From Paenirhodobacter hankyongi (GTDB lineage: Bacteria; Pseudomonadota; Alphaproteobacteria; Rhodobacterales; Rhodobacteraceae), in assembly GCF_003664585.1 (NCBI RefSeq), contig NZ_RCHI01000007.1:124001-188000 (forward strand): DNA of 64,000 nt, read 5' to 3'. The translations under genes were made by a program, and so were the position numbers. The notes under the pieces were generated by a model. The model was not told where the DNA came from. It saw nothing but the letters and a program-made list of their open reading frames with translations, and ran no database searches. This document shows, in pieces, positions 5,001 through 19,771 of this stretch; position 1 is the stretch's first letter, and each line of letters starts with the position of its first letter.

Positions 5001-5047
5001 ATGCGGGCGAGTGCCTCGTCGAGCGTCGCGGCGCGGGTGACGCTCAT
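2018..5047 (-). CDS. Fused FAD-binding and molybdopterin-binding subunit of a molybdenum hydroxylase
   Basis: A 1009-residue fusion. Residues about 1-250 form a CoxM-like FAD domain (AGGTAF at 24-29, ATLGGTIG at 92-99, the latter partly degenerate). A Pro/Ala-rich linker spans about 252-266. Residues about 280-1009 are the CoxL/XdhB-like Mo-pterin domain (GGAFGGKDE near 504-512, AFRGFGANQ, and GVGELGIG carrying the probable catalytic Glu969). The enzyme would hydroxylate an N-heterocycle or aldehyde with water as oxygen source and give electrons to the [2Fe-2S] subunit encoded next. The ATG at 5047 overlaps the stop of the upstream oxygenase gene (ATGA). The Glu and overall plan resemble xanthine dehydrogenase, and the flanking purine deaminases fit, but the substrate is not established. 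FAD and Mo domains fused with a separate iron-sulfur subunit is an uncommon arrangement. Confidence 0.88.
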   Translation of the reverse strand: MSVTRAATLDEALARIAAGARPVAGGTAFRLDAAAGKPVPADLVDIGALLPNGIEGNRIGAGTDLETLRWGAVPLLSAAAADVAAPNIRRLATLGGTIGWRAGCLLPALLALEAQVGTTHGPRPLVDWLAHPEGLVLSVTVSPLARQIWRKTGLRAGFCPSIIAAAGAFSLEDDRIAAVRLAVGGGAVAPARLPETEGWLLGRPLATLDRAALRERIEAEIAAPDCAFRSARYRRRVAASALVAGLVGLAPLPRPARPRPAPAPLPELTELSRAAGGERWHMREDMPAKVRGTLAYMTDVRAEGMLVGRILRAAHPHAEILAIDTAAAEALPGVRAVVTHRDVPGLNAFGILFQDQPALCSDRVRYIGDAVAAVAAIDAETAERALALIRVDYRPLPLVEDMAAALAPGAPPVHASGNLVTEVGLSRGDLAASFAAAVHVVEDTYVTPRQMHGFMETEGGWAAPEGEGLIVCAGGQHGARDRMQLARILALPEDRIRVVTSPTGGAFGGKDELTVQPALALLALKARAPVRLHLSRAESVLAGTKRNPFVIRMRTGCDAEGRLVAQEVEALADSGAYASLSPGVLETAMEHAAGPYRVANIRTRGRLAYTNNGTGGAFRGFGANQMSYAIECQIDRLAALCGLDPVEIRRRNLRRTGEPGFLGQKVAPTEKLSEMLDIAAASDLWAPAAARPDEVTGTGIALNYQGNGLGTIPTDEARFEVRLEDGKIRVFTGLDEIGQGMVASVHAAVAERLHCARADIEVIFGDTGTAPDSGSTTASRGGYVVWRGVEETAPALAAKILAQASRRLGLPADRLRIVPGGVQAEGGNHSPTLAFSELAPERAETFFAFPKSDYLAGNARFIFAYGVTLARVAISRVSGAVRVLDLEIHTAAGKVIDMASYLGQMEGGLVQGLGFTLTEDMPMTAGRPLARNFDSYLMPTVRDVPERMRATAHEPLDPADPFGPRGVGELGIGAVTPAIANAVADALGAWPATAPFPPETLLAMLEAAR

Positions 5048-5895
5048 TCGGCGGCCATCGCGGCGGGTTCGGCGGTGGTGCCGAAGGTCAGCCCCTTCTC
5101 CTTCAGCCAGCGGCGATAGGCGATCGAGGAACTGTCGGCGCGGGTTGGGATCTCGGCCCGCGGCTCGAGCGGCAGAAGCCGCGGGCGCTGGTTCTCGACG
5201 ATGATCCGGTCTTGCAGGAAGATCACCTGCTCGAAGCGCAGAAGCTGCGTCTGCGTCGCCTGCTGGTCGAGCAGGTACATCACCGGCTGCGCCCGGCACA
5301 GACCGGCCTCGATCGGGTGGATGAAGAGCGCGATGGCGTCCTGCCGCTCGGGCGCCGAGGGGCAGACGCGATAGAGCATGACGACGAAGGGATCGGGCAC
5401 GCGATAGGTCAGCCGGGCGAATTCGCCCTCGGGCCGGGTGCTGGTCATCTGCGGCTGGAAGAAGGTGCAGTTCGTCGCCCAGACCTCGTCGACCTCGCGG
5501 CGGATCTCGGACTTGTAGCCGGGCACTTCGGTGTGCGGCTCGGAGCCGAGGATGTCGGTGTGCACGAAGGGAAAATGCGCCATGTCGAGAAAGTTCTCGA
5601 CCACCCTCAGCCCCGAGGCCCGCATGGTCACCCAACCGCAGGGGACGAAGCGGCGGTCGGGTTCCCCGGCTTCGGCGATGTCGAAGATCTCGCGCCCGGG
5701 GGTGCCGAGCGTGGTCCACAGACAGCCGAATTTCTCGCGCACCGGCAGGGCGCGCGCGTCGGACGTCACCTGCCGGCCCGGCCCGATGGTGATCGGGTGG
5801 CCCAGCAGTTTCGTCTCCTCGACCCGGTCGAGGTCGGCAAGCGTCGCGACCGCATACCAAGCGTTCAGGGCGACGGGATCTTGCGTGGCGCTCAT
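5044..5895 (-). CDS. Rieske-type oxygenase catalytic subunit lacking the Rieske domain (copy 1)
   Basis: This 283-residue protein has the mononuclear iron domain of VanA/NdmC-like Rieske oxygenases but no Rieske cluster. The 2-His-1-carboxylate site is clear: E100-x3-D104-x2-H107-x4-H112 (ENFLDMAHFPFVH) and the likely third ligand D229 (FLQDRIIVENQ). Where relatives carry the Cys-x-His...Cys-x2-His segment, the chain jumps from a first strand (LLGHPITI, about 30-37) straight to the post-Rieske strand (ALPVREKFGCLW, about 49-60). It is therefore about 60-70 residues shorter than usual. The start at 5895 has a good GGAGG; an upstream ATG at 5913 is less likely. A paralogue lies at 18908-19771 and a stand-alone Rieske protein at 11600-12247. 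NdmC of caffeine-degrading Pseudomonas is a known Rieske-less precedent. Reaction inferred: N- or O-demethylation or ring hydroxylation. Confidence 0.85.
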   Translation of the reverse strand: MSATQDPVALNAWYAVATLADLDRVEETKLLGHPITIGPGRQVTSDARALPVREKFGCLWTTLGTPGREIFDIAEAGEPDRRFVPCGWVTMRASGLRVVENFLDMAHFPFVHTDILGSEPHTEVPGYKSEIRREVDEVWATNCTFFQPQMTSTRPEGEFARLTYRVPDPFVVMLYRVCPSAPERQDAIALFIHPIEAGLCRAQPVMYLLDQQATQTQLLRFEQVIFLQDRIIVENQRPRLLPLEPRAEIPTRADSSSIAYRRWLKEKGLTFGTTAEPAAMAAE

Positions 5896-5905
5896 CGTGG
5901 CCTCC

Positions 5906-7273
5906 TCAGGCATCGGTCCATTGTTTCGAGGCGTTCTCGGCCAGCCACGCCTTGCGGCGGGTGAAAAGGCCGGGGGCAAGGCGGTCGATGCGGGCGATGA
6001 TCTCGCCCATGTCGCCGGTCTTCAGCGCGCCATCCTCGACGACGATCGCGCCATTGACCATGGTCATCGCCACGTCCGAGCCGCGCACCGCATGCACAAG
6101 GTTGTGCTGCAGGTTGAACCACTCGCCATCGGGCAGGAAGGGGGTCATCCGCGGCGTGTCGGCGCGCACCGCGATGATGTCGGCCTTCTTGCCGGGTTCG
6201 AGCGCGCCGGTGACATCGCCCAGCCCCACCGCCTTCGCGCCGAGCGAGGTGCCCATGCGCAGCGCCGTCCAGCTGTCCATCGCCGCGGCGTCGCGGTGCC
6301 GCAGCTTGCCCAGAAGCGAGGCGGTCTTCAGCTCCTCGAACATGTCGAAGTTGTTGTTTTCCTTCTCGCCATCGGTGCCAAGGCCGACCGGCACGCCCAG
6401 CTCCAGCATCTCGGCCACCGGTGCGATGCCCGAGGCGAGCTTCATGTTCGACACCGGGTTGTGCGCGACCGAGACATTGTGGCCCGCGATCAGCTCGACC
6501 TCGTCGCGGTCGAGCCAGACGGCATGGGCGAACATCGTGTGGCGGGTCTCGAAGAAGCCCAGATCGCGGAACACCTCCATCGGGCGGCGGCCATAGCGGC
6601 GGAGGAACTCGGCCACCTCGATCTCGGCCTCCGAGCAATGGGTGTGGAACGGCACGTCGTATTTCTTCGCCATGTCGATGGCGCGCCGCTGCCCGGCCTC
6701 GTCGGCATAGAACAGATGTTCGAGCCCGACCCAGACCGAGACCCGGCCGTCCGCGCCGCCGTTCCAGCGCTGGATCAGCGCCTCGTTCATGTCGAGCCGG
6801 TCGAAATAGTCGTAATCGGGGTGCTCGCCCACATAGGGCACGGCGATCAGCCGGTTGCCCATCACCTCGGCGGCCTTGGCCGAGCCCTCCATGAAGCGCC
6901 ACATGTCGACGACGGTGGTGGTGCCGGACAGCAGGCTTTCGGCATAGCACAGATAGCTTGCCGCCTCGGCTTCCTCGGGGCGCAGCATCCGGTGCATCGG
7001 GTTGATGTGCAGCGTCAGCCAGTCCCAGACCGGCAGGTGTTCAGCGGTGCCGCGCAGGAAGCCGGAATGGGCATGGGCGTTGATCAGCCCGGGCATCAGC
7101 ACGGCGCGGCCCATCGGCTTGACCTTGGCGCCGGGGTGGGCGGCAAGGATCTCGTCGGCGGGGCCGACGGCGGCGATGGTATCGCCGCGCACCACGACCG
7201 CGCCCTTGGCGATCACCCGCAGCGCGGCATCCATCGTCACCACGGCATCGGCGGTCAGGATCAGGTCGGTCAT
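5906..7273 (-). CDS. Amidohydrolase of the chlorohydrolase/SAH-deaminase type (COG0402-like)
   Basis: A 455-residue metal-dependent hydrolase of the adenosine/MTA/SAH deaminase and atrazine-chlorohydrolase group. It shows the metal pair H67-x-H69 (NAHAHSG), a later His (HTHCSE), a third metal His and the catalytic Asp (GTDGEKENNNFD). Such enzymes remove an amino or other leaving group from an N-heteroaromatic ring. The ATG at 7273 overlaps the GMC oxidoreductase stop, and the next gene starts about 10 bases after its own stop, so it is mid-operon. It differs clearly from the 8-oxoguanine-deaminase-like and guanine-deaminase proteins of the rightward block, giving three amidohydrolases in one locus. 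Confidence 0.87.
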   Translation of the reverse strand: MTDLILTADAVVTMDAALRVIAKGAVVVRGDTIAAVGPADEILAAHPGAKVKPMGRAVLMPGLINAHAHSGFLRGTAEHLPVWDWLTLHINPMHRMLRPEEAEAASYLCYAESLLSGTTTVVDMWRFMEGSAKAAEVMGNRLIAVPYVGEHPDYDYFDRLDMNEALIQRWNGGADGRVSVWVGLEHLFYADEAGQRRAIDMAKKYDVPFHTHCSEAEIEVAEFLRRYGRRPMEVFRDLGFFETRHTMFAHAVWLDRDEVELIAGHNVSVAHNPVSNMKLASGIAPVAEMLELGVPVGLGTDGEKENNNFDMFEELKTASLLGKLRHRDAAAMDSWTALRMGTSLGAKAVGLGDVTGALEPGKKADIIAVRADTPRMTPFLPDGEWFNLQHNLVHAVRGSDVAMTMVNGAIVVEDGALKTGDMGEIIARIDRLAPGLFTRRKAWLAENASKQWTDA

Positions 7274-8787
7274 GCGTCCTCCAGAATGAACGTCGCCGCG
7301 CGTTCGCCGATCAGGGTCACGGGGGCGTGGGTGTGGCAGGCGGGGATCACCGGGATCACGGAGGCATCCGCCACCCACAGCCCGCGCGTTCCCCGGACGG
7401 CAAGGCGCGGGGTGACCGGGGCCTCGTCCGAGGCCCCCATCCTTGCCGTGCCGCAGCAGTGGAAGAAGGTCGAGCAGCCGCGCCGGACGAAGGTGTCGAG
7501 CGCGTCGCCGGCAAGCCGCCCCTCGGGCGCGGCAAAGCCCGCGAAGAGGCCGGCAAAGGCCGGACCCGTGACCATGTCAAGCATCGCCTCGACGCCGCGT
7601 TTCATCGCGGCGAGGTCACGCGGATCGGTGAGCAGGCCGGGGCGGATGTCGAGCGGGTCATCGACCCCGGTGCCGGTCAGCCGCAGCCGCCCGCGCGACC
7701 ACGACCGCATCACGCCGAGGCCAATGGCGAAGAGCGGCCCCTGATCGGGCAGGCGGTAGTGCTCCATCAGCGCGGGCACCCCCGAGCGGCCCTGGATCGG
7801 GAAGGCGAGCAGGTCCGCCTCGGGCAGGCTGGCGTCGGATTTCCAGATCGTCAGCGTGCCGCCGCCGTTCCCCTGCATCGGGCCGAAGGGCTCGGTCAGG
7901 CGGAAATTCAGTGCGCGCAGCAGCGGGTGGTCCTGCAGGTTCTGCCCCACGCCCTCGGCCCGCACCCGGCAGGCAAGGCCGAGGCGGGCGAGCTCCGCCT
8001 CGGGGCCGATGCCGGCAAGGGTCAGCAGCCGCGGCGTCTCGAAGGCGCCGGCGGCAAGGATCACGCCGCGGCGCGCGGTGAAACGGCCGGCCGTGGTCTC
8101 GACCCCGGTCGCGCGGTCGCCGGTGAAGATCAGGCCAAGCGCCCGGGTCTCGGGGAGTAGCGTCACCCCGCGCCCCAGCATCGGCCGCAGATAGCCGTCG
8201 GCCGAGGTCCAGCGCCGCCCGTCCTTCAGGTTGAAATTGCCAAGCGCCACGCCGAGGGGCTCGGGCCCGTTCGGATCGGCCAGTTCCGGCAGCCCCATCG
8301 CCCGCCCGCCCGCCAGCATCGCGCGGGTCAGCGGGTGCTCGGTGCTCGAGCGCTCGATCGACAGCGGGCCGCCCACGCCGCGCAGGTGGGTGGCGCCGCC
8401 CGCCCAGTCCTCGGCGCGACGGATGAAGGGCAGGCAGTCGTCAAAGGACCAGCCCGGCGCCTCGGCGTCCCATCGTGCGTAATCGGCGGGGGTGCCGCGA
8501 TACCACATCATCGCATTGGTGGCCGAGGAGCCGCCCACGGCCTTGCCGCGCGGAATGGCGATGGTGCGGCCCAGCACCTCGGGGGCGGGGGCATAGTCGT
8601 GCGCCCAGTCCCAGATGCTGCGCTGCAACCCGAACCAGCAGGAGGGATCCTCGATCTCGCGCACGCCCTTCGGGTCGCGCCCGGCCTCGAGGACCAGCAC
8701 CTCGGCGCCCGCCTCGGCCAGACGCCGCGCCACCGGCGCGCCGCCCGAGCCCGAGCCGATGACGATGAAATCGAAGCTGTCCTGCAT
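7270..8787 (-). CDS. GMC family FAD oxidoreductase
   Basis: A 505-residue glucose-methanol-choline type flavoprotein. The ADP-binding motif is near the N terminus (IGSGSGG, about 10-16), followed by the GMC signature around GKAVGGSSATN. The C-terminal active-site region reads HCCGTARMG and then HTHAPVTLIGERAA. These enzymes oxidise an alcohol to an aldehyde or acid and pass electrons to O2 or a quinone. The start at 8787 matches the family N terminus; an ATG at 8811 with a fair ribosome site is the alternative. In this operon it could feed the aldehyde dehydrogenase or act on a hydroxymethyl intermediate. That is inference. Confidence 0.88.
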   Translation of the reverse strand: MQDSFDFIVIGSGSGGAPVARRLAEAGAEVLVLEAGRDPKGVREIEDPSCWFGLQRSIWDWAHDYAPAPEVLGRTIAIPRGKAVGGSSATNAMMWYRGTPADYARWDAEAPGWSFDDCLPFIRRAEDWAGGATHLRGVGGPLSIERSSTEHPLTRAMLAGGRAMGLPELADPNGPEPLGVALGNFNLKDGRRWTSADGYLRPMLGRGVTLLPETRALGLIFTGDRATGVETTAGRFTARRGVILAAGAFETPRLLTLAGIGPEAELARLGLACRVRAEGVGQNLQDHPLLRALNFRLTEPFGPMQGNGGGTLTIWKSDASLPEADLLAFPIQGRSGVPALMEHYRLPDQGPLFAIGLGVMRSWSRGRLRLTGTGVDDPLDIRPGLLTDPRDLAAMKRGVEAMLDMVTGPAFAGLFAGFAAPEGRLAGDALDTFVRRGCSTFFHCCGTARMGASDEAPVTPRLAVRGTRGLWVADASVIPVIPACHTHAPVTLIGERAATFILEDA

Positions 8788-8833
8788 CGCCCTCGTGCCT
8801 TCTGCCCCCATGCCTTCTGTCCAGCGTGTCGTC

Positions 8834-9442
8834 TCAGTTGTGCTCCGAGGGGCCCATGATGGTGATCCCCTCGGTCGCCTCGACATGGCGCACGAAGATG
8901 TACTTGTCCTCGCGCCCGTCGGAATGCTTGCGGCGGATGTCGGGCTGCACCGTGCCCGCGACCTTGGCGACGACGATATAGGGCTCGGCCGCGGCCAGGC
9001 CCTTGCGGCAATGGTCCTCGAACTCCTCGAGGGTGCGGGCGGTATAGGCATGCGGCACGCCCGCGCCGCGCGCGATCGCCGCGATGTCGACCCGGCCGAA
9101 GGCGGTGTGGGTCGGCGGGCCGCCGATCGACTGATAGCATTCGTTGTCCCAGACCACGACGAACAGGTTCTTCGGCTGCTCGTTGCCCAGCGTGGCGAGG
9201 ATGCCGAGGTTGAACATCATGCCGCCGTCGGTGTCGAGCGAGACGATGCGGCGGTCGGGAAGCCCCGCCGCCAGACCGAAGGCCTGCGGCGTGACGCAGC
9301 CCAGCTGCTGCTGGAACAGGCTGGCCGCGCGCATGTGCGGGGCGGCGTTGTACCATTCGTCGACCGAGGCACCGAGCGACAGGATCACCAGCTCGTCCGA
9401 CAGCATCGCGGCCAGTTTCGTCATGCAGTCAAAGCGTTTCAT
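8834..9442 (-). CDS. Thiamine-diphosphate-binding (beta-type) subunit of a sulfopyruvate/phosphonopyruvate decarboxylase-like enzyme
   Basis: A 202-residue protein with the C-terminal PP domain of ThDP decarboxylases. The cofactor motif reads DTDGGMMFNLGILATL and closes with WDNECYQ, in the place of the usual GDG...NN. It is the size of ComE-type subunits and is made as a separate chain; the partner PYR domain is encoded just upstream with an ATGA overlap that fixes the start at 9442. Together they would decarboxylate a 2-oxo acid to an aldehyde. Residues after about 165 (IRRKHSDGREDKYIF onward) are a family-variable tail. Substrate unknown. Confidence 0.82.
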   Translation of the reverse strand: MKRFDCMTKLAAMLSDELVILSLGASVDEWYNAAPHMRAASLFQQQLGCVTPQAFGLAAGLPDRRIVSLDTDGGMMFNLGILATLGNEQPKNLFVVVWDNECYQSIGGPPTHTAFGRVDIAAIARGAGVPHAYTARTLEEFEDHCRKGLAAAEPYIVVAKVAGTVQPDIRRKHSDGREDKYIFVRHVEATEGITIMGPSEHN

Positions 9443-9939
9443 CGCACGATGCTCCCCGACAGCGCCACCGCGGTGTGGTAATAGCTGGCATAGGCCAGCT
9501 CGTAGGCGTCGACGATCGCCTGCTCGATCCGCGCTTCCTCGCGCTCGACCACATAGGGGATGCGCAGCGCCTGCAGCACCGGCTCCATCGTCACGCCATG
9601 CGGCACCGCCCACCAGTTGTTCTCGCCCATGTCGCCGCGATAGCTCATCAGCATCACCACCGGGATGCCGGCGCCGAGCCCCATCCGGGCAAGCGGCTCG
9701 ACCGAGGCGCGCAGGCCCGAGTTCTCCATCACCAGCGCCGCGCGCTTGCCCGAGAGGAACACGCCGCCGCAGATCGCCGCGCCCTCGCCCTCGTTGGTGA
9801 CGCGGATGGTGCGGATGTCGGGATCGGCATCAAGCGCCGGATAGAGCTCCTTGAAGAGCGAATCCGGCAGGTAGCAGACGATCGAGACGCCTGCGCGCTT
9901 GAGGCCGCGGATCACGGCGTCGACGGCGCTTTGCTGCAT
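9439..9939 (-). CDS. PYR-domain (alpha-type) subunit of a sulfopyruvate/phosphonopyruvate decarboxylase-like enzyme
   Basis: A 166-residue protein resembling ComD-type alpha subunits. It carries the conserved Glu of the PYR domain in the stretch VTNEGEGAAICGG, which activates ThDP in the partner chain. It is the first gene of the leftward block that runs down to 46. A 17-bp palindrome (10023-10039) lies about 85 bases upstream, a sensible place for an activator. The ribosome-binding site is weak (AAAGACTCTCC). Pairing with 8834-9442 is certain from the 4-base overlap; the reaction is inferred from family alone. Confidence 0.82.
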   Translation of the reverse strand: MQQSAVDAVIRGLKRAGVSIVCYLPDSLFKELYPALDADPDIRTIRVTNEGEGAAICGGVFLSGKRAALVMENSGLRASVEPLARMGLGAGIPVVMLMSYRGDMGENNWWAVPHGVTMEPVLQALRIPYVVEREEARIEQAIVDAYELAYASYYHTAVALSGSIVR

Positions 9940-10022
9940 TGGAGAGTCTTTCCTGCGTTGTCTTCCCGCTCAGCCAACCAGCTTTCCGGTGTTCCGAAAA
10001 GACGATGATTTCCGAACCAGTC

Positions 10023-10039: not shown

Positions 10040-10044
10040 ACCTG

Positions 10045-10965
10045 TCAGGCCAGCCGCTCGAGCGCGAGGCCGAGCGAGGAGCCAAGCGCCTCGGCCGCCT
10101 CCGAGGCCTCGCCCTTCGGCCGCGCGATCAGCGACAGGCGTCGCGCGCTGAGGCGCGAATCGGAAAGCGGGATGAACACCAGCTCGCCGCGCGCGATCTC
10201 GGCCTGCACGCCGAGCTGGGTCTGCAACACCGTGCCGAGGCCGCGCTTGGCCAGGTCGATCATCAGCCCGATCGAGTTTGTCCGTGCCCGGCGCGAGAAT
10301 TCGACGAAGCTGCCCGACAGCACCTGTTCGATCGAGCTGTCGAGGGTGAGCGAATGGTCCGACAGGATCACCCGCTCGCCGGCCAGGTCATAGGAGCGCA
10401 ACGGCCCCTTCTGCTGCGTCAGCCGGGTGCCGGGGGCGACCATCACCCCAAGCGGCAGCTGCACCGCGGTGATCCGGCGCGCGCCGCGCGGCAGGCGCAT
10501 GTCGAAGGCGATGGCGATGTCGGCCTCGCCCTGCGTCACCAGATCCACCGCCTCCTGCGAGCCGCAGACATGCACGTCGACCGAGATCTCGGGGTGGCGG
10601 ATCCAGAAGGCGGCAAGCACGTCGGGCACCAGCGCACGGGCCGCACTCTCGATCACCGCAAGCGTCACGGTGCCGCGCCGCAGCCCCTGCAGGTCGCCGA
10701 TCTCGGTCACCGCGCGTTTCAGCTCGCGGTCGGACTGGCGCAAATGGTAATGCAGCAGCTCGCCCGCCGAGGTCAGCTTCAGCCGCTGCTTCTGGCGCTC
10801 GAACAGCGGCGTGCCGATGTCCTCCTCCAGCTGCTTGATGGTGCGGCTGACCGAGGAGGGGGCGACGTTCATCGCGAGCGCTGCCTGCCGGATCGAGCCG
10901 AGCCGCGCCACCAGCATGAAGTGATGCGTGCGTGACGAGATCAGCCCGAGCCGGTGCAGGTCCAT
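10045..10965 (-). CDS. LysR family transcriptional regulator of the catabolic locus
   Basis: A 306-residue LysR protein. The winged helix-turn-helix is at about 17-75 (ARLGSIRQAALAMNVAPSSVSRT... is its core) and a periplasmic-binding-like effector domain fills the rest. It begins 8 bases after the GST gene stop, so it belongs to the leftward 12529-10045 block. Two near-identical palindromes, one just downstream of it and one upstream of its operon, are likely targets. Control would cover the decarboxylase/oxygenase operon, the Rieske operon and the importer operon. The inducer is presumably the substrate or an early intermediate (inference). Confidence 0.9.
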   Translation of the reverse strand: MDLHRLGLISSRTHHFMLVARLGSIRQAALAMNVAPSSVSRTIKQLEEDIGTPLFERQKQRLKLTSAGELLHYHLRQSDRELKRAVTEIGDLQGLRRGTVTLAVIESAARALVPDVLAAFWIRHPEISVDVHVCGSQEAVDLVTQGEADIAIAFDMRLPRGARRITAVQLPLGVMVAPGTRLTQQKGPLRSYDLAGERVILSDHSLTLDSSIEQVLSGSFVEFSRRARTNSIGLMIDLAKRGLGTVLQTQLGVQAEIARGELVFIPLSDSRLSARRLSLIARPKGEASEAAEALGSSLGLALERLA

Positions 10966-10973: not shown

Positions 10974-11603
10974 TCAGTGATAATCCGGAATGCCCGGCAT
11001 GGTGATGAAGCCCGGGGTCAGCCGCACCCGCCGCGCCCAGAGCCGCAGCGCCGGGAAGGCGTCGTGGTCGAGCCCGTGGTCGCGGCTGAGTGCGAAGGCC
11101 GGGAACAGCGCCAGATCGGCGAGCGTCAGCTCGGGCCCGGCGAAGAAGCCAAGGCCGCGGATCGTCTGATGCGTCATGTGGTCTTCCATCACCCGCAGCA
11201 TCCGTGCGGTGCGCGCCGAGAGCGCGGCGAGGTCGCCCGGTGTTGCCATCAGCGCAATCTCGCGCGCGGCCTTCGCCGGTGCCAGATGCTGCGCCCAGAA
11301 GGCCAGCCAGTCGTCGATGCGCGCGGCGATGATGCTGTCCTCGGGCATCAGCCGCCGTTCCGGATCGAGCGCGGCAATCCGGCGCAGGATCGCCTCGGGC
11401 TGGGTCAGCACCAGCATCTCGTCCTGCAGGATCGGCAGCGTGCCGAGCGGGTTCAGCCGCAGGTAGGCATCCGAGCGGTGTTCGGCGCCCGGGAACATGT
11501 CGACGTTGCGCAGATCGAGTGCGACGCCGCTGCAGGCGGCGACCAGCCGGGCGCGATAGCAATCCTCGTCGAGGTCGTAATTGTGCAGAAGCGGCGCGCT
11601 CAT
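10974..11603 (-). CDS. Glutathione S-transferase-like protein
   Basis: A 209-residue protein with an N-terminal thioredoxin-fold GST domain (LLHNYDLDEDCYRARL; the cis-Pro region NPLGTLPILQDE; then LTQPEAILRRI). A helical C-terminal domain follows, with ELTLADLALFPAF matching the conserved C-domain Asp motif. The start overlaps the stop of the Rieske protein gene by 4 bases. Role in the pathway is unknown: such proteins in degradation clusters can isomerise, dehalogenate or protect. The tight coupling to the Rieske subunit suggests a catalytic or assembly role. Confidence 0.85.
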   Translation of the reverse strand: MSAPLLHNYDLDEDCYRARLVAACSGVALDLRNVDMFPGAEHRSDAYLRLNPLGTLPILQDEMLVLTQPEAILRRIAALDPERRLMPEDSIIAARIDDWLAFWAQHLAPAKAAREIALMATPGDLAALSARTARMLRVMEDHMTHQTIRGLGFFAGPELTLADLALFPAFALSRDHGLDHDAFPALRLWARRVRLTPGFITMPGIPDYH

Positions 11604-12247
11604 GCGGCGATCTCCTTCTCGGCGGTGCGGCGCAGCGTCTCGGCCCAGTCACAGATCGCAAGCAGGGTCTCGGTCGAGGCGCCGGGGCGGGTGGCGATAT
11701 GCAGTGTGACTGCCCCGGGGCGGATCGGCTGCACGCCGATGGCAAGCGGCCCATGCGCGCTGTCGAGGGTCGCAAGCGCCCCCTCGATCACCGCGTTCTC
11801 CTCGTTCAGCAGCATGTTGGCCACCGAGATCAGTCCGGCCTCGATGGTGATCGAGCGCACCGGCACCGCGTCGGGCAGAGCCGGCAGTTCGCCCGCCTCG
11901 GCGCCAAGCGGCAGCGCCGCCCAGATCATCGCTCCGGTCTCGGTGCAGCCATAGCGCGCCACGCAGATCGAGCCCGGCACCTCGAGCTCGGGGTGGGCGG
12001 GGATCTTGCGGCAGGTGCCGCCCTCGTCGAATTCCCAGCCGTGATAGAGGCAGGCGATGTGATCGCCGCGCACGAAGCCGAAGCTCATCTTCATGCCGCG
12101 ATGCGGGCAGCGGTCCTCCCAGACATGGGCGCGCCCGTCGGTGTCGCGCCAGACCACGATCTCGGCGCCCTCCGCCACGGTTCCCGCCGAGGTGCCCGGC
12201 GTGATGTCACGGGCAAGGGCAAGCGGCACCCATTGCGTCCCAGTCAT
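11600..12247 (-). CDS. Stand-alone Rieske [2Fe-2S] protein
   Basis: A 215-residue protein whose first 110 residues are a typical oxygenase-type Rieske domain: Cys47-x-His49 (CPHRG) and Cys66-x2-His69 (CLYHGW). The remaining 100 residues resemble the beginning of an oxygenase catalytic domain (VPVRSITIEAGLISVANMLL) but lack the D-x2-H-x4-H iron site. It is thus the mirror image of the two Rieske-less catalytic proteins at 5044-5895 and 18908-19771. The simplest reading is that it supplies electrons to one or both. No flavin reductase for it is visible in the window. Its stop overlaps the GST gene start; the upstream gene is 24 bases away. Confidence 0.85.
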   Translation of the reverse strand: MTGTQWVPLALARDITPGTSAGTVAEGAEIVVWRDTDGRAHVWEDRCPHRGMKMSFGFVRGDHIACLYHGWEFDEGGTCRKIPAHPELEVPGSICVARYGCTETGAMIWAALPLGAEAGELPALPDAVPVRSITIEAGLISVANMLLNEENAVIEGALATLDSAHGPLAIGVQPIRPGAVTLHIATRPGASTETLLAICDWAETLRRTAEKEIAA

Positions 12248-12271: not shown

Positions 12272-12529
12272 TCAGTTGTTGTCATTGCGGTCCACCTCGC
12301 GCACCAGGCAATCCGCCGGACCGAGGCTCATCGCCATCTCGAAGGCGTCGAGCAGGTCCGGGGCGCCACTGACGCGCAGGCGCGCCGCCGTTGCGTCGAG
12401 TGCAACCGTGTCGAGCGCGATCGACAGCCGCGCCGCGCGGTGCGCGGCGAATTCGGCGAAGCTGTCCGGGCGGATCTGCCCGGAGAAGGTGAAGGTCGCG
12501 CGCGATGCAGGGCGCCGGGAAGCAGGCAT
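12272..12529 (-). CDS. Small acylphosphatase-fold-like protein of unknown function
   Basis: An 85-residue protein at the head of the Rieske operon. The order of elements (strand TFTFSGQI, helix SFAEFAAHRAARL, strand, strand RLRVSGAPDLLDAFEMAM, final strand LVREVDR) recalls the acylphosphatase fold. The catalytic Arg and Asn motifs (VQGVGFR and N in the VxN loop) are absent. The start at 12529 has GAAAGG upstream; an upstream ATG at 12592 would add 21 Pro/Ala-rich residues. Translation together with the Rieske protein suggests a binding, ferredoxin-like or chaperone role. I do not recognise a named family. Confidence 0.6.
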   Translation of the reverse strand: MPASRRPASRATFTFSGQIRPDSFAEFAAHRAARLSIALDTVALDATAARLRVSGAPDLLDAFEMAMSLGPADCLVREVDRNDNN

Positions 12530-12646
12530 GGCTGGCCTTTCGGGCGGTGGAAACGGGGCTGGCCGGAGGGCCGGAGGCGCGGTGGATCCCATCGCTCCGG
12601 GGCCGGTCGCGGCTCAGTAAGACCAGCCCCGGCCGGCCCGTCAAGT

Positions 12647-12822: not shown

Positions 12823-13947
12823 ATGATCTCTATCAAGTCTCTTTCCCGCCGCGGCTTTCTGAACATGGGCGCCGCCGCGGGCGCGGGCCTGCTGCTGCCG
12901 CGAACCGGGCTGGTGCGCCCCGCCTTCGCGCAGGCGCCGCTCGCCCCCGTCGACGTCAAGGATGCGATGATCGCCTTCGGCCACACCGGCCCGGTCTCGG
13001 ACGAGGGCTGGACCTGGGCGCATGACCAGGGGATGAAGGCGGTCGAGGCGGCCTTCCCGGGCATCCGCACCTCCTTCGTCGAGTCGGTCCCCTATTCGGC
13101 CGACGCCACGCGCATCTTCCGCCAGTTCGTCGCCGACGGGGCGAACATGGTCTTCGCCACCTCGAACTATGGCGATTTCCTCTATGACGTCGCCAAGCGC
13201 GCCCCCGAGGTCGCCTTCTATGAATGCGACGGCCGCACCCACATGGACAACCTCGGCACCTATTACGTGCAGCACTGGTATCCGTCCTATGTCGCGGGCA
13301 TCGCCGCGGGTGCGATGTCGAAATCGGGCAAGCTCGGTTATGTCGCCTCCTTCCCGGTGCCCTCGGTCTATTCCGGCACCAACGCCTTCCTGATGGGCGC
13401 GCGCACGGTGAACCCGGCCGCGACCGTGCAGTGCATCGTCATCAACTCGTGGTTCGATCCGCAGGCCGCGACCCAGGCCGGCACCGCGCTTCTCGACAAC
13501 GGCTGCGACGTGCTCTTCGGGATCATGGACGAGGCCGGCTATCTGCAGGTCGCCGAGGCGCGGGGCGCGAAGGCGGTGATGTGGAACACCGACCTGCGCC
13601 GCTATGGCCCGAAGGCCTACATCACCTCGATCATGGTCGACTTCAAACCCTTCTACGTCGAGCAGGTGCGCCGCCGCCTTGCCGGCGAATGGACGCCGAC
13701 CTACGGGCTGCTGCCGATGGGCCAGGGTGTCGACCGCGACGCCTGGGGCGAGACGGTGCCGCCCGAGGTCGCCGCCAAGGCCGATGCCGCGCGCAAGAAG
13801 ATGATGGAAGAGGGCTGGAGCCCCTTCGTCGGCGAGATCAAGGACTCGAAAGGCAACATCAAGGTCGCCGCAGGCCAGAAGATGACCGAGGAAGAACTCT
13901 ATCACTGGGACTGGTCGATCGAGGGCGTCTCGGGCCTCGACGCCTGA
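12823..13947 (+). CDS. BMP family ABC transporter substrate-binding protein (purine-nucleoside-like)
   Basis: A 374-residue periplasmic binding protein of the Bmp/PnrA family, whose known members bind nucleosides or other purine compounds. The N terminus carries a twin-arginine signal (SRRGFLN at 8-14, hydrophobic core, cleavage probably near AFAQA around 35). Export in folded form is therefore likely. It is the first gene of the rightward operon and is followed by its ATPase and two permeases. The ATG at 12823 is preceded by a fair GGGAGCCTCCTC leader. The ligand is probably the compound degraded by the locus. Confidence 0.92.
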   Translation: MISIKSLSRRGFLNMGAAAGAGLLLPRTGLVRPAFAQAPLAPVDVKDAMIAFGHTGPVSDEGWTWAHDQGMKAVEAAFPGIRTSFVESVPYSADATRIFRQFVADGANMVFATSNYGDFLYDVAKRAPEVAFYECDGRTHMDNLGTYYVQHWYPSYVAGIAAGAMSKSGKLGYVASFPVPSVYSGTNAFLMGARTVNPAATVQCIVINSWFDPQAATQAGTALLDNGCDVLFGIMDEAGYLQVAEARGAKAVMWNTDLRRYGPKAYITSIMVDFKPFYVEQVRRRLAGEWTPTYGLLPMGQGVDRDAWGETVPPEVAAKADAARKKMMEEGWSPFVGEIKDSKGNIKVAAGQKMTEEELYHWDWSIEGVSGLDA

Positions 13948-13954
13948 GGCGGCG

Positions 13955-15511
13955 ATGGCAGAGCCTTCGATCCAGTCGCGTCTCGGGCTGGCGCCCGGGA
14001 CGCCTCCGCTTGTCTCGCTGCGCGGGGTTGGCAAGGTCTTCCCGGGCGTGATCGCCAATGCCGATGTCGATCTCGACGTCTTCCCGGGCGAGATCCACGC
14101 GCTTCTGGGCGAGAACGGCGCCGGCAAGTCGACGCTGATGAACATCCTGACCGGAATCTATCAGCCCGACGAGGGCGAGATCATCGTCGGCGGTCGCGCG
14201 GTCAGCTTCGCCTCGCCCGTCGATGCGATCGCGGCGGGCATCGGCATGGTGCACCAGCACTTCAAGCTGGTGCGCGCCTTCACCGTGGCCGAGAACATCC
14301 ATCTGGGCTGGAGCGAGACGCCAAGGCGGATCTCGCGCGCGGCGCTCGAGGCGCGCACGGCCGAGCTGTCGTCGCGGCTGGGGCTGGCGGTCAATCCGGC
14401 GGCGCGGGTGGCCGAGCTGTCGACCGGCGAGCAGCAGCGCGTCGAGATCCTGCGGGTCCTTGCCCGCAAGGCGCGGGTGCTGATCCTCGACGAGCCGACG
14501 GCGGTGCTGACGCCCGCCGAGGCGCGCGAGCTTTTCGCCGCGCTGCGCGCCTTCGTGGCCGAGGGCAATGCGGTGATCTTCATCAGTCACAAGCTCGACG
14601 AGGTGCTGGAGATCGCGCATCGCGTCACCATCCTGCGGCAGGGCCGCAAGGTGGCGACCGACTGGACCGAGGCCTGCACCGAGAAGAGCCTCGCACAGCA
14701 GATGGTCGGCCGCGAGATCGTGCTGAGCGACATGCGCGGCACCGACATCGGCCGCATCGGCGCGCCGGTGCTGGCGCTCGAGGGCGTCAGCCTGATGTCC
14801 GAGGGCGTGACACTGCTGAAGAACGTCTCGCTCGAGCTGCGCGCGGGCGAGATCCTCGGCATCGCCGGGGTCGCGGGCAATGGCCAGCGCGAGCTGACGC
14901 AGGTGATGACCGGGCTTGCGGTGCCGACGACCGGCCGGGTGTGGCTGGAGGGCGCCGATGTCACCCGTGCCGGCGCGCGCAGGATCGCGGCGCAGGGCGT
15001 GGGCCATATCCCCGAGGACCGGCTGCACGCCGGCATGGCGCCGGCGCTCTCGATCACCGACAACGCGGTTCTGCGCGAATACGCGAAACCGCCGCTGTCG
15101 CTCGGGCCGCTGTTCCGGCCCTGGCGCGCGACGCGGCTCGCGCGCGAGATCGCCGCCGCGGCCGAGGTCATGGTGCCGAGCTTCGAGATGCCGGCGCGCA
15201 ACCTCTCGGGCGGCAACCAGCAACGCCTCGTGGCGCGGCGCGAGATGCGCATCGCCTCGAAGGTGCTGGTTGCGGCCTATCCCTCGCGCGGGCTCGATGT
15301 CGGCGCGATCAACACGATGATGCGCTATTTCACCGAGCTGCGCGACGCCGGCGTCGCCGTGGTTCTGGTGTCCGAGGAACTGGAGGAGCTGTTGACCCTC
15401 GCTGACCGGATCGCCGTGATGTTTCATGGCGAGATCATGGGCGTCGTGCCTGCCGAGGGCGCGGATATCGAGGCGATCGGCCTGATGATGGGCGGGAGGC
15501 ACGCGGCATGA
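13955..15511 (+). CDS. ABC transporter ATP-binding protein, tandem ATPase domains (sugar/nucleoside type)
   Basis: A 518-residue protein with two nucleotide-binding domains. Domain 1 has Walker A GENGAGKST, signature LSTGEQQR and Walker B VLILDEPTA. Domain 2 has a degenerate Walker A (GVAGNGQREL), signature LSGGNQQR and the region following SKVLVAAYPSRGLD. This layout is standard for RbsA/YufO/NupO-like transporters. It starts 8 bases after the binding-protein gene, and its stop overlaps the first permease start. Confidence 0.93.
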   Translation: MAEPSIQSRLGLAPGTPPLVSLRGVGKVFPGVIANADVDLDVFPGEIHALLGENGAGKSTLMNILTGIYQPDEGEIIVGGRAVSFASPVDAIAAGIGMVHQHFKLVRAFTVAENIHLGWSETPRRISRAALEARTAELSSRLGLAVNPAARVAELSTGEQQRVEILRVLARKARVLILDEPTAVLTPAEARELFAALRAFVAEGNAVIFISHKLDEVLEIAHRVTILRQGRKVATDWTEACTEKSLAQQMVGREIVLSDMRGTDIGRIGAPVLALEGVSLMSEGVTLLKNVSLELRAGEILGIAGVAGNGQRELTQVMTGLAVPTTGRVWLEGADVTRAGARRIAAQGVGHIPEDRLHAGMAPALSITDNAVLREYAKPPLSLGPLFRPWRATRLAREIAAAAEVMVPSFEMPARNLSGGNQQRLVARREMRIASKVLVAAYPSRGLDVGAINTMMRYFTELRDAGVAVVLVSEELEELLTLADRIAVMFHGEIMGVVPAEGADIEAIGLMMGGRHAA

Positions 15512-16557
15512 GCTATCGTCTGCAACGCCTGCCGGTCGCCAAACCCTCGGTCGCCTTCGCGGCGCGCATCGCCTCGGTGGTGCTGGCGCTGCTGACCGCG
15601 GGGCTGGTGCTGAAACTCGTCGGCATGGAGCCTCTGGCGCTGGCCGGGCGGGTGCTGAAATCGACCTTCGGATCGAGCTTCGGGCTCGAGGATCTGGCGC
15701 TTCTGTTCACGCCACTCCTTTATTGCGGGCTGGCGGTCGCGGTGGCGCTGCGGATCGGGGCGTGGAACATCGGCGCCGAGGGGCAGTTCAATCTGGGCGC
15801 CTTTGCCGCGGCGGGGATCGCCCTTTTCGTGCCGGGGCCGGACTGGGCGCAGCTGCCGGCGATGGCGGTCACGGGGGCGCTGGCGGGGGCCGCCTGGATC
15901 CTGGTGCCGACGCTCGCGCGCGCCTATGCCGGCGTGTCCGAGCTGATCACAACGCTTCTTTTGAACTTCGTCGCGCTGCTCTTGGTCTATTGGGTCTCGA
16001 CCGGGCCTTGGCTGGACCCGTCGGGGCATGCGCTCGCGACCACCGCGCGGCTGCCGGTCTCGGTGCCCGAATTCTGGGGCATCGTGCATTGGGGGCTGCC
16101 GGTCGCGGTGATCCTCGCCGTGGGGCTGGCCGCGGTCTTTGCCTTCACCCGCTGGGGCTATGAGGTGCGGATCGGCGGCTCGAACCCGGGGGCGGCGCGC
16201 TATGCGGGCATGCCGGTGCGGCGCCACCTGATCGCGGTGATGCTGCTTTCGGGCGCCATCGCCGGGCTGGGCGGGATGATGGAGGTCGCGGGCACCGTCG
16301 GTCGGCTGCAGGGCGGGATCTCGAACAATTACGGCTATCTCGGCATCATGGTCGCGGTGCTGGCCCGCGCTGCGCCGCTCGGCACCATCGCCACCGCCTT
16401 CCTGATGGCCACCATCCTGAACGGCGGCATCATCTTGCAGACCCAGGGGCTGACCACCCACACCGTGCTCGCGCTGACCGGGCTGATCCTGCTCTATGCG
16501 GCGATCGGCGACGAGGCCGCGAAATACCGCATCGTCAAACTCGCGAAGGGAGCGTGA
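15508..16557 (+). CDS. ABC transporter permease 1 (nucleoside/BMP type)
   Basis: A 349-residue polytopic membrane protein of the BPD_transp_2/RbsC-like family. Several hydrophobic segments begin near residue 20 and GAEGQFNLGAFAAAG marks the conserved region. It forms the inner-membrane channel with the next permease. The ATG at 15508 overlaps the ATPase stop (ATGA). Confidence 0.92.
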   Translation: MSYRLQRLPVAKPSVAFAARIASVVLALLTAGLVLKLVGMEPLALAGRVLKSTFGSSFGLEDLALLFTPLLYCGLAVAVALRIGAWNIGAEGQFNLGAFAAAGIALFVPGPDWAQLPAMAVTGALAGAAWILVPTLARAYAGVSELITTLLLNFVALLLVYWVSTGPWLDPSGHALATTARLPVSVPEFWGIVHWGLPVAVILAVGLAAVFAFTRWGYEVRIGGSNPGAARYAGMPVRRHLIAVMLLSGAIAGLGGMMEVAGTVGRLQGGISNNYGYLGIMVAVLARAAPLGTIATAFLMATILNGGIILQTQGLTTHTVLALTGLILLYAAIGDEAAKYRIVKLAKGA

Positions 16558-16558
16558 G

Positions 16559-17494
16559 ATGGATATTCTCGCAGGGCTGATCCAGACCGCCTTCCTGGCC
16601 GGCGGGGTGCTGGCGCTTGCGGCGCTGGGCGAGGTGCTGGCCGAGCGCGTGGGCGTCGTCAATCTTGGTGTCGAGGGGCTGATGGCGCTGGGCGCGATGA
16701 CCGCGATCACCACCGTCGTCGCCTCGCCCCATCCCTGGCTTGGTTTCGGCGCGGCGCTGCTCGTCGGGCTGGTCGTCGGCATGGTCTATGCCTTTGCCAC
16801 CGTGGTGATCCGCGCCAATCAGGTGCTGAGCGGGCTCGCGCTGACCTATATCGGCACCGGCATGGCGGCGACGCTGGGCAAGCCCGTCTCGGGCAGCCCG
16901 TCGCCCGCCACCTTCCGCCCGCTCGACCTTGGGGTCCTGTCCGATCTGCCCTTCGTCGGGCGCGCCTTCTTCAGCCACAACATCCTCGTCTACATCATCT
17001 TCCTGGTGTTGCCGGTGGTGCTGCACTGGCTGATGTTCCACACCCGCCACGGGCTGAACATGCGCGCCGTGGGCGAGAACCCGGCCGCCGCCGATGCCGC
17101 GGGCATTTCGGTGATGAAGTTCCGCTTCTGGTACACCGCGCTTGGTGCGGCGCTGGCGGCAGGTGCCGGCGCCTATCTGACGCTCGCCTTCGTGCCGAGC
17201 TGGTCCGAGGGCGTGGTCTCGGGCCGCGGCTGGATCGCCGTGGCGCTGGTGATCTTCGCGGGCTTCCGGCCGGTGAACGCGGTGCTGGCGGCGCTTCTGT
17301 TCGGCTTCGTCACCGCGCTTGGCTTCGTCGGGCAGGCGCGGAACTGGCCGGTCGCCGCCTCGATCCTGTCGATGCTGCCTTACCTTGGCACCATCGCGCT
17401 GATGATCGTGCCGGTACTGGCCTGGCAGCGGATGCGCCGGCTGATGGCCGCGCCCGAAGGCCTGACCGAACCCTATTTCCGGGACGTGCGATGA
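16559..17494 (+). CDS. ABC transporter permease 2 (nucleoside/BMP type)
   Basis: A 311-residue partner permease of the same family, with the conserved VGVVNLGVEGLMALGAM element near residues 32-48. About eight to ten hydrophobic segments follow. The start at 16559 is chosen because it follows the preceding stop directly and matches the family N terminus (MDILAGLIQTAFLAGG). The gene ends in an ATGA overlap with the deaminase gene, tying import to catabolism. Confidence 0.92.
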   Translation: MDILAGLIQTAFLAGGVLALAALGEVLAERVGVVNLGVEGLMALGAMTAITTVVASPHPWLGFGAALLVGLVVGMVYAFATVVIRANQVLSGLALTYIGTGMAATLGKPVSGSPSPATFRPLDLGVLSDLPFVGRAFFSHNILVYIIFLVLPVVLHWLMFHTRHGLNMRAVGENPAAADAAGISVMKFRFWYTALGAALAAGAGAYLTLAFVPSWSEGVVSGRGWIAVALVIFAGFRPVNAVLAALLFGFVTALGFVGQARNWPVAASILSMLPYLGTIALMIVPVLAWQRMRRLMAAPEGLTEPYFRDVR

Positions 17495-18897
17495 AGACCC
17501 TGTTGAAGAACATCTCGGTCCTTGCGACCTTCGACGACGCGGGCGGCCCGGCCGGGCGCGAGCTGACCGATGCGGGGCTGCTGATCGACGGCACCCGCAT
17601 TGCCGCGGTCGGACCGATGGCCGACTTCGCGGACGTCGCGGCCGACCGGGTGATCGACCTGAGCGATCACGTCGTCATGCCGGGGATGGTGAACACCCAC
17701 CACCATTTCTATCAGAACCTGACCCGGGTGATGGTGCAGGACGATCCGCTCTTCGACTGGCTGAAGACGCTCTATCCGATCTGGGCGCGGATCGACGACC
17801 GGGCGATGGAGGTTGCCGCGCGCATGGCGATGGCCGAGCTGATCGCCTCGGGCTGCACCACCTCCTCCGATCACCAGTATATCATGCCCAACGACTGCAC
17901 CCTCGACACACCGATCCGTGTCGCGCAGGAGATGGGGATGCGCTTTCACGCGGCGCGGGGCGCGATGTCGCGCGGCGAAAGCAAGGGCGGCCTGCCGCCC
18001 GACAGCTGCGTCGAGGAGGAAGAGGACATCCTGCGCGACGCCGAGCGGCTGATCCACCGCTATCACGACATGAGCGAGGGGGCGATGACGCGCATCGTTC
18101 TGGCGCCCTGTTCGGCCTTCTCGGTGACGCCCGGGCTGATGCGCGAGGCGGCCGAGCTGGCGCGGTCGCACCGGGGGGTGCATCTGCATTCCCACATCGC
18201 CGAGGTGCTCGACGAAGAGGTCTATTGCCATGAGATCTATGGCATGCGCTCCGTGGGCTATGCCGAAAGCGTCGGCTGGCTCGGCCCCGATGTCTGGTTC
18301 GCGCATGCGATCTTCCTCGACGATGCCGAGATCCGGCTGTTCGCCGAGACCGGCACCGGCGCCACCTTCTGCCCCTCGGCGCACATGCGTTGCGGCCTTG
18401 GCATCATGCGGGCGCGCGAGATGCTCGATGCCGGGGTGACGGTGGGGCTTGGCGTCGACGGCTCGGCCTCGAACGACACCTCGAACATGTTCCAGGAGGC
18501 GCGCATGGCCCAGTATCTGCAGCGCGTCGCCCCGGCGAGATACCTGTCGGCCAAGCCCGGCGGGCGCGGCGGCTTCGGCGGCACGCCGGCGGCGCTGTCG
18601 GCGCGCGAGGCGCTGTGGATGGCGACGCGGGGCGGGGCGAAGCTGCTGGGCCGCGACGACATCGGCCAGCTCGCGCCGGGCAAGGTTGCCGACGTGATCG
18701 CGGTGCGCCGCGATCAGCTCGGCCTTGCCGGCACGCAGCGCGATCCGCTTGCCGCGCTCGTCATGTGCGGCCCCTTCGCGGTCGATTATTCCTTCATCAA
18801 CGGTGTGCCGGTGATCGAGCGGCGGGGCTTCACCCGGCTCGACATCGAGGCCGCCCTTGCCGAACATGGCCAGACCATGGCGCGGATCTATGCCTGA
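17491..18897 (+). CDS. 8-oxoguanine deaminase-like amidohydrolase
   Basis: A 468-residue COG0402 amidohydrolase closely resembling the 8-oxoguanine/guanine deaminase subgroup. The metal site begins with H70-x-H72 (NTHHHFYQ), the subgroup element LYPIWARI follows at about 94-101, then LHSHIAE and FAHAIFL. The catalytic Asp lies in GVDGSASNDTSNM. Expected chemistry is deamination of an oxidised purine such as 8-oxoguanine to urate, though related members act on pterins and other rings. It is coupled to the importer genes by a 4-base overlap, so imported material is likely its substrate or precursor. Confidence 0.85.
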   Translation: MKTLLKNISVLATFDDAGGPAGRELTDAGLLIDGTRIAAVGPMADFADVAADRVIDLSDHVVMPGMVNTHHHFYQNLTRVMVQDDPLFDWLKTLYPIWARIDDRAMEVAARMAMAELIASGCTTSSDHQYIMPNDCTLDTPIRVAQEMGMRFHAARGAMSRGESKGGLPPDSCVEEEEDILRDAERLIHRYHDMSEGAMTRIVLAPCSAFSVTPGLMREAAELARSHRGVHLHSHIAEVLDEEVYCHEIYGMRSVGYAESVGWLGPDVWFAHAIFLDDAEIRLFAETGTGATFCPSAHMRCGLGIMRAREMLDAGVTVGLGVDGSASNDTSNMFQEARMAQYLQRVAPARYLSAKPGGRGGFGGTPAALSAREALWMATRGGAKLLGRDDIGQLAPGKVADVIAVRRDQLGLAGTQRDPLAALVMCGPFAVDYSFINGVPVIERRGFTRLDIEAALAEHGQTMARIYA

Positions 18898-18907
18898 GGA
18901 GATGGTA

Positions 18908-19771
18908 ATGAACGCTCTTGTTCCCGAAGTGACGGATGACAGCAACGACCAGTGGTTCTGCCTTGGCTGCATTCAGGACATGCCGCAGGGCGCCCATGGC
19001 ACGCGGCTTCTGGGCCATGACCTCGTGGTGACGAAACGCGGTGACCTGCTGACGGTGCGGATGGACGAGGCGGAACTGCCCGTGCGCGAGCGCTATGGCT
19101 ATCTGTGGACGACGACCGGCACGCCCGCGGGCGAGGTGCCCGAGATCACCGAGGCCGACGAGCGCGACCGCCGCTATGTGCCCTGCGGCGCGATCCCGGT
19201 GCGCGCCTCGGCGCCGCGGGTGATCGAGAACTTCCTCGACATGGCGCATTTCCCCTTCGTGCACACCGACATCCTCGGCTCGGAACCGCTGACCGAGGTC
19301 GAGAAATACAAGTGCGAGATCCGCCGCGACGTTGACGAGGTCTGGGCGACGGATTGCGTCTTCACCCAGCCGAAGGCGGCGCTGGCCGCGACCGGCGCGA
19401 TCCGCACCGATTACATCTATCGCGTCACCACGCCCTTCACCGTGCTGCTCTACAAGACCTGCCCGAATTCGGCGACGCGGTGGGACGTGATCTGCCTCTT
19501 CGTGCAGCCGGTCGAGCCGGGTGTCTCGATCGCGCATCCGGTGATGTTCCTGCTCGATGATGAGGGGGCGATGCAGGATCTGATTGCCTTCCAGCAGGTG
19601 ATCTTCCTGCAAGACAAGATCATCCTCGAGAACCAGCGCCCGGTGCTTTTGCCGCTCGAGCCGCGGGCCGAGACGCCGACCCGCGCTGATGCCTCCTCGA
19701 TCGCCTATCGGCGCTGGCTGAAGGAGAAGAACTGCCTCTATGGCACCAGCCTCGGCCCGAAGGCGGCCTGA
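18908..19771 (+). CDS. Rieske-type oxygenase catalytic subunit lacking the Rieske domain (copy 2)
   Basis: A 287-residue paralogue of the protein at 5044-5895, sharing long identical stretches around the iron site: E107-x3-D111-x2-H114-x4-H119 (ENFLDMAHFPFVH) and D236 (FLQDKIILENQRP). It again passes from LLGHDLVV (about 34-41) directly to ELPVRERYGYLW (about 56-67), with no Cys/His Rieske ligands. The start at 18908 has GAGGAG at a good distance; an ATG at 18902 is possible. It sits between two purine deaminases, 10 bases after one and 3 bases before the other. With two catalytic chains and one Rieske protein in the locus, heteromers or two demethylation steps are possible. Confidence 0.85.
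   Translation: MNALVPEVTDDSNDQWFCLGCIQDMPQGAHGTRLLGHDLVVTKRGDLLTVRMDEAELPVRERYGYLWTTTGTPAGEVPEITEADERDRRYVPCGAIPVRASAPRVIENFLDMAHFPFVHTDILGSEPLTEVEKYKCEIRRDVDEVWATDCVFTQPKAALAATGAIRTDYIYRVTTPFTVLLYKTCPNSATRWDVICLFVQPVEPGVSIAHPVMFLLDDEGAMQDLIAFQQVIFLQDKIILENQRPVLLPLEPRAETPTRADASSIAYRRWLKEKNCLYGTSLGPKAA

Follow-up and report, generated by a model that had tools for sequence, protein, structure and literature searches.

The 64,000-nucleotide stretch of Paenirhodobacter hankyongi DNA analysed here (contig NZ_RCHI01000007.1, positions 124,001 to 188,000; hereafter, the window) carries a Rieske oxygenase alpha chain that has been split between separate genes. Two of these, catA and catB, encode catalytic chains that have a mononuclear iron site and no Rieske domain, and a third, R, encodes a free Rieske protein that has no iron motif. 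Together with genes for a glutathione S-transferase (GST)-like protein (G) and a small acylphosphatase-like protein (S), which belong to the same set, they quite probably specify a multi-protein Rieske oxygenase that arose by a reciprocal split of the alpha chain and in which a single R-G-S unit serves both catalytic chains.

Reciprocal split of the alpha chain

The first oxygenase subunit, catA (5044..5895, minus strand; 283 amino acids), matches only the VanA_C domain in Pfam (E 2e-16), and the second, catB (18908..19771, plus strand; 287 amino acids), matches VanA_C (E 3e-22) and KshA_C, another catalytic domain; a Rieske domain is found in neither. The product of R (11600..12247, minus strand; 215 amino acids) matches the Rieske domain (E 3e-23), with cluster ligands C47, H49, C66 and H69, and no catalytic or reductase domain. 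The Rieske cluster and the mononuclear iron site never occur together in these proteins, each of which holds one or the other. By alignment, and by the roles that such residues have in the family, we take H114, H119 and D236 to be the iron ligands of catB and D111 to be its bridging residue; the ligand motif of catA is the same as in 68 catalytic relatives. The first-pass annotation of this DNA had given the coordinates and frames of the three proteins correctly, and its description of two Rieske-less catalytic chains and one Rieske protein without the iron motif is borne out by the Pfam domains and by the ligand counts in relatives.

Among the solved structures, SxtDIOX was matched over residues 11–132 by R (E 6e-24), 92–333 by catA (E 5e-20) and 109–333 by catB (E 2e-18). 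Since these stretches come from one chain, R, catA and catB represent complementary halves of it. NdmA and NdmB are present in the match lists of all three proteins. The alpha-chain fold was also found in the predicted structures of R and catB (the latter of middling confidence), with NdmA/NdmB and SxtT/GxtA ranking high in the fold lists of both models, and the tail of R is predicted to be a reduced catalytic-domain fold without the iron motif.

These comparisons bear on whether R could instead be a freely diffusing Rieske ferredoxin that hands over electrons transiently and is not a fixed subunit. R does weakly resemble the ferredoxin components of dioxygenases, and one R beside two catalytic chains would suit a shuttle, but catA and catB have no Rieske cluster of their own to accept electrons from a ferredoxin-like protein, and R, which retains its catalytic-type tail, aligns with alpha chains over 212–213 of its 215 residues in the fold comparison. 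It is also accompanied by a GST partner, which is described as required for activity in the NdmCDE system (PMC4408171). We consider a diffusing ferredoxin improbable and R more likely a subunit of the split oxygenase.

The absence of a Rieske domain from the catalytic genes is not confined to the annotated frames. An in-frame Rieske domain at either gene, which by the earlier annotation's own standard would have refuted the split, is absent: when all six frames of the genome were searched for the Rieske family, the only match on the window contig was R, and the stop-to-stop frames of the 68 catalytic relatives contain no C-x-H-(12-25)-C-x2-H motif. These relatives all keep the iron ligands (68/68) and have no in-frame Rieske motif (0/68), and the Rieske relatives, free or reductase-fused, keep the cluster ligands (57/57) and have no iron motif (0/57), near-identical copies being included in both sets. 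The window genome (3.8 Mb; G000, contig C50) is close to Sinirhodobacter ferrireducens, in which catB and R are 98% and 89% identical, respectively, and loci with a free Rieske protein are also found in other Rhodobacterales, Rhizobiales, Acetobacteraceae, Telmatospirillum and Rhodococcus. This conservation and recurrence show that the split is not due to chance.

Architectures, co-occurrence and phylogeny

The loci fall into three architectures. In type I, R and a reductase form one protein (with Rieske, NAD-binding and Fer2 domains), which is accompanied by one or two catalytic chains and a GST; it is found in Klebsiella, Pseudomonas, Sinorhizobium and six survey genomes (in one, L138, the frame is short, 437 amino acids). 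The NdmD-like protein of Klebsiella and Sinorhizobium has the same Rieske-plus-tail region, followed by the NAD-binding and Fer2 reductase domains. Type II, seen in Paracoccus alcaliphilus and in the survey genome G521, consists of a free R, a catalytic chain, a GST and an adjoining VanB-type reductase, whose NAD-binding/Fer2-type domains are encoded by a separate neighbour gene. Type III, to which the window belongs, has a free R, and the fetched stretch contains no homologue of VanB or NdmD. Of the type III clusters seen, that of Rhizobium etli p42c is the smallest, with genes for a small protein, R, the catalytic chain, GST, an amidohydrolase and an importer, and no reductase is named among the annotated features of that region; the R, catalytic and GST genes are contiguous there and in P. 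alcaliphilus. On Sinorhizobium meliloti pSymA (L094, 13962-15773), a pair of neighbouring Rieske-less catalytic genes is accompanied by a single Rieske-reductase and a single GST, so the fused type also shows two chains per Rieske. On Pseudomonas putida 1290 plasmid pPp1290 (L093, 14844-16599), the NdmD-like gene is annotated as three frames and the adjoining catalytic gene is shortened, suggesting a decaying copy.

The G and S genes had been overlooked in the first-pass annotation, which listed the trio alone. G (10974..11603, minus strand), with GST_N and GST_C domains, is the counterpart of NdmE and overlaps the end of R by 4 bp. S (12272..12592, minus strand; start codon uncertain, orthologues aligned) flanks R on the side opposite G. 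The acylphosphatase profile PF00708 detects S homologues at L095 (E 6e-7, passing the cut-off) and marginally at L088 and L060 (0.012), and gives no match to the window copy; the catalytic Arg and Asn motif of acylphosphatases is not evident by eye in the alignment of S orthologues. An acylphosphatase-like gene is present at 29 of the 37 free-R loci in one locus set, and none was found in the six type I survey loci.

The catalytic and Rieske genes do co-occur in other genomes; had they never done so, the earlier annotation would have counted its reading as refuted. In 57 of the 62 loci with a Rieske-less catalytic chain, a GST gene is present together with a free or fused Rieske gene, although not all these loci are independent (L046, L047 and L059 are from one genome). 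Among the five exceptions, L047 forms one region with L046, and both genes lie in the L046 half; L084 is a contig of 6.9 kb; the plasmid origin cuts L096, with the Rieske (a short frame of 136 amino acids) and GST genes lying across it; and L057 is a 21-kb contig of a 74%-complete genome. In the 198 genomes of the family, the catalytic chain was found in 12, the split Rieske in 12 and both in 11 (hypergeometric p 4e-16, relatedness ignored; the broken copy in genome G124 counted on both sides). The latter copy (L058, on contig 53) is fragmentary, with stops and broken frames, and the system seems to be decaying there; its fragments, and Rieske rows below 140 bits, were dropped before the counts. 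Across 398 genomes of the phylum, a Rieske-less chain is present in 15, and in a further 12 the threshold is reached by full-length oxygenases only.

Whole-genome searches covered 25 of the 29 named loci (L075, L078, L084 and L087 were left out) and found two Rieske-less chains in 16 genomes and one in nine. Two catalytic genes with exactly one free Rieske gene, the arrangement that the earlier annotation had described for the window, occur in 15 of the 25, that is, in 15 of the 16 two-chain genomes, and from this gene content we infer that R is shared. In G606 a second, weaker R match is confined to the Rieske part of a 389-amino-acid frame that looks like a full-length oxygenase. Both chains lie on one contig in 14 of the 15 genomes, with R between them in all 14. 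The Celeribacter layout is that of the window, with aldehyde dehydrogenase, xanthine dehydrogenase (XDH), catA, amidohydrolase, GMC oxidoreductase and thiamine pyrophosphate (TPP) enzyme genes on one side and the importer, 8-oxoguanine deaminase and catB on the other. Similar layouts are seen in Telmatospirillum and in Bradyrhizobium, the latter without fused XDH or aldehyde dehydrogenase matches in the stretch seen.

In the tree of catalytic domains, a single branch parts all Rieske-less chains from the full-length ones (98% SH-aLRT). Within the former, type I chains (with L057) are separated from those of types II and III with weaker support (90, 93), and L140 falls outside both; the window chains group next to the chains of NdmCDE-type architecture from Klebsiella, Pseudomonas and Sinorhizobium. 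catA shares a clade with chains of R. tumorigenes, G116 and Rhodococcus, distinct from the clade of catB. The main split recurs in the Rieske tree (92), which also groups type I (98) and does not recover type III as a single group. These were quick trees, rooted on the full-length group and subject to long-branch warnings, from which short, duplicate and very distant rows had been dropped.

The distinct clades, the single-chain genomes and one orphan catalytic gene would fit a situation in which R is used by only one of the two chains, the other having a different partner or being non-working. Against this, the iron ligands are invariant in chains of both clades, and a second R gene is absent in 15 of the 16 two-chain genomes. 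Moreover, R and GST accompany a lone catA-clade chain in Rhodococcus and a lone non-catA-clade chain in Gluconacetobacter and Martelella, which fits a common unit with interchangeable chains. We regard service to a single chain as unlikely and prefer an R-G-S unit common to catA and catB.

Proposed mechanism and electron supply

We propose that an ancestral alpha chain was divided by reciprocal decay, such that R would have retained the [2Fe-2S] Rieske cluster and a shrunken catalytic fold, and catA and catB a shrunken Rieske fold together with the mononuclear iron site. An NAD(P)H reductase would deliver electrons to the Rieske cluster of R, from which they would reach the iron of whichever catalytic chain is docked, this last step crossing a protein-protein interface that replaces the usual contact between subunits. 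In ordinary Rieske oxygenases the cluster of one subunit is ∼12 Å from the iron of the next, according to a recent review (PMC12445004), so a division between chains is mechanistically natural. The GST-like protein may hold R and a catalytic chain together, as proposed for NdmE, the acylphosphatase-like protein is probably another structural part, and one R-G-S unit would be common to both chains. A more specific version of this scheme, to which we give slightly less than an even chance, is a fully dissociated oxygenase with a Rieske-GST-acylphosphatase-like power unit, interchangeable docking chains and no reductase of its own, produced by reciprocal decay of copies of one gene.

In favour of a shared multi-protein oxygenase, protein distances for the catalytic chain, R and GST correlate at 0.92–0.94 with one another, versus 0.65–0.84 with two importer proteins (26 loci), but these loci are related and non-independent. 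Several other points weigh against it. In the catB model, confidence is low at the iron-binding helix (pLDDT ∼50). L090, on a plasmid of Roseicitreum antarcticum, has a catalytic gene and no R on that replicon, the chromosome not having been searched. R occurs without a catalytic chain in G118, and a catalytic chain without R in G033; both assemblies are incomplete, that of G118 being 84% complete with R near a contig start. G610 has two chains and two R genes, each R beside its own chain. A VanB/NdmD-type reductase was not found in the fetched stretch of 45 of the 57 complete loci, and the nearest homologues of the P. alcaliphilus reductase in the window genome, on contigs C3 (40% identity) and C11 (35%), lie away from the locus among other neighbours.

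A reductase is present in 12 of the 62 loci. Near free-Rieske loci, a VanB-type reductase was seen only at L095, the P. alcaliphilus locus, and L139, and the window contig has no homologue of the P. alcaliphilus VanB-type reductase at E<=1e-4 (in both cases other reductase types were not searched), which agrees with the earlier remark that the reductase partner is not in the window. Neither candidate for a dedicated VanB elsewhere in the genome was accepted: that on C11 has a full-length oxygenase on either side, and that on C3 lies in what appears by eye to be an amine-oxidation locus. The simplest idea would be that the electrons come from a shared reductase. The VanB-type gene flanked by two full-length Rieske oxygenases elsewhere in the genome, on contig 11 (L011, 5177-9031), is a candidate for such a shared donor.

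Neighbouring genes and comparison with known systems

Beyond S, on the plus strand, are genes for a BMP-family substrate-binding protein of an ABC importer (12823..13947; PF02608, E 3e-37), for the importer ATPase and two permeases (13955..17494; open reading frames named by synteny with annotated importers), and for an 8-oxoguanine deaminase (17491..18897) that ends 10 bp upstream of catB and scores 583 bits against a cut-off of 532 for NF006055; this cut-off is also exceeded in P. alcaliphilus and one Rhodococcus, and not in R. etli. A guanine-deaminase-like gene (19775..21088, plus strand) starts 3 bp downstream of catB (TIGR02967, 357 bits, below the cut-off of 375). The catA block, all on the minus strand, comprises an aldehyde dehydrogenase (46..1554), an XDH-like enzyme (1551..5047; start inferred; NCBIfam PucE and PucD, below cut-offs), an amidohydrolase (5906..7273; PF01979, E 7e-61; start inferred), a GMC oxidoreductase (7270..8787; PF00732 and PF05199; start inferred) and a two-gene TPP enzyme (8834..9939). 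The XDH-like enzyme has a small FeS subunit and fused FAD and molybdopterin subunits in one frame of ∼1010 amino acids (2018-5047, minus strand), and R. tumorigenes (L089) has a single annotated 3147-bp gene at the matching place. The TPP enzyme resembles sulfopyruvate decarboxylase subunits and is related also to phosphonopyruvate decarboxylases, below curated cut-offs, and mostly accompanies catA. Between the R-G and TPP genes, in a conserved position, is a LysR-type regulator (10045..10932, minus strand; start uncertain), homologous (163 bits) to L011:10045-11034, itself a Pfam LysR match. Far from the oxygenase, at 48338-63972, are genes whose translations resemble, by eye, a [NiFe] hydrogenase and its maturation set.

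It is the neighbouring genes only, namely those for the BMP importer, the 8-oxoguanine deaminase, the guanine-deaminase-like protein and the XDH-like enzyme, that point to a role with purines. catB would work with the importer and deaminases, and catA with the amidohydrolase, XDH-like, GMC, TPP and aldehyde dehydrogenase genes; the last three, mostly travelling with catA, suggest further breakdown of a carbon fragment. The most likely chemistry would be oxidative N-dealkylation or hydroxylation of an imported purine-type base, the former suggested by kinship to NdmC and the latter by kinship to HpxD and SxtT. An N-demethylase for methylated purines (e.g. 7-methylguanine or 7-methylxanthine), in which catA and catB would each take off a different alkyl group, is a tenable if tentative reading: the window chains group beside NdmCDE-type chains, the proteins also match NdmA and NdmB, and deaminases and a BMP importer adjoin, but the best structural matches, SxtT and GxtA, are hydroxylases. 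Hydroxylation of an unmethylated purine or pterin ring, related to the molybdenum-free HpxDE reaction, seems somewhat less likely; HpxD matches catB at 28–29% identity and 8-oxoguanine-deaminase-type enzymes accompany several loci, but the catA block already holds an XDH-like enzyme and HpxD (not in the tree) is a full-length chain. We do not choose between N-dealkylation and hydroxylation. In the open-access literature searched, no paper dealt with a Rieske protein together with an 8-oxoguanine deaminase or with a 7-methylguanine demethylase, and a search on cytokinin degradation, considered as another function, returned unrelated work only.

Should the fully dissociated version of the scheme be real, no earlier system of this kind would have had two iron-only chains sharing a free Rieske subunit, or an acylphosphatase-like subunit. 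The smaller, separable proteins of the free-Rieske form would allow Rieske-to-iron electron transfer and the GST requirement to be tested piecewise, catalytic chains could be swapped on one Rieske unit, and the purine-type pathway could be identified. It also matters for annotation, since public records call the catalytic chains 'aromatic ring-hydroxylating dioxygenase subunit alpha' or '(2Fe-2S)-binding protein' despite their having no Rieske site.

Several known systems share features with that of the window. HpxDE, like it, is a Rieske oxygenase linked to purine catabolism, with a VanB-type reductase adjacent to HpxD in Pantoea, but the earlier annotation's use of it as a partly split relative does not hold, because HpxD of Pantoea and Klebsiella is a single chain with both the Rieske and the catalytic domain. 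NdmA/NdmB and SxtT/GxtA are the closest solved structures by sequence for catA and catB, and among the closest for R, but are complete alpha chains with both metal sites. Three-component dioxygenases likewise have a separate small Rieske protein, whereas their terminal oxygenase retains its own Rieske cluster, unlike the window chains.

The nearest precedent is NdmCDE, the caffeine N7-demethylase complex of P. putida CBB5, in which a Rieske-less catalytic chain, a Rieske domain on another protein and a required GST-like protein are described, the role of the last being only postulated (PMC4408171). The earlier annotation cited NdmC and NdmD as a split precedent, but the likeness is closer than it held, since NdmCDE has a GST partner as well. 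In Klebsiella, Pseudomonas and Sinorhizobium, loci with the NdmCDE layout encode homologues of each of the three window proteins, the kinship being judged on these loci and not on the CBB5 sequences of NdmC, NdmD and NdmE. The structure of the NdmCDE complex is given as unsolved in a 2026 paper (PMC13237722), and a term search of the text of the 2025 Rieske oxygenase review found no occurrence of NdmC or glutathione (PMC12445004). NdmCDE catalyses N7-demethylation of 7-methylxanthine. NdmD is a Rieske domain fused to an NADH reductase, whereas in the free-Rieske loci the reductase is a separate gene or absent from the locus, many have a small acylphosphatase-like gene in addition, and one free Rieske commonly goes with two catalytic chains. 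The open-access literature searched yielded no paper describing the free-Rieske form; on displaced or missing Rieske domains it gave NdmCDE as the sole such system, the other papers appearing unrelated from their listings. The form described here is a more fully separated version of it.

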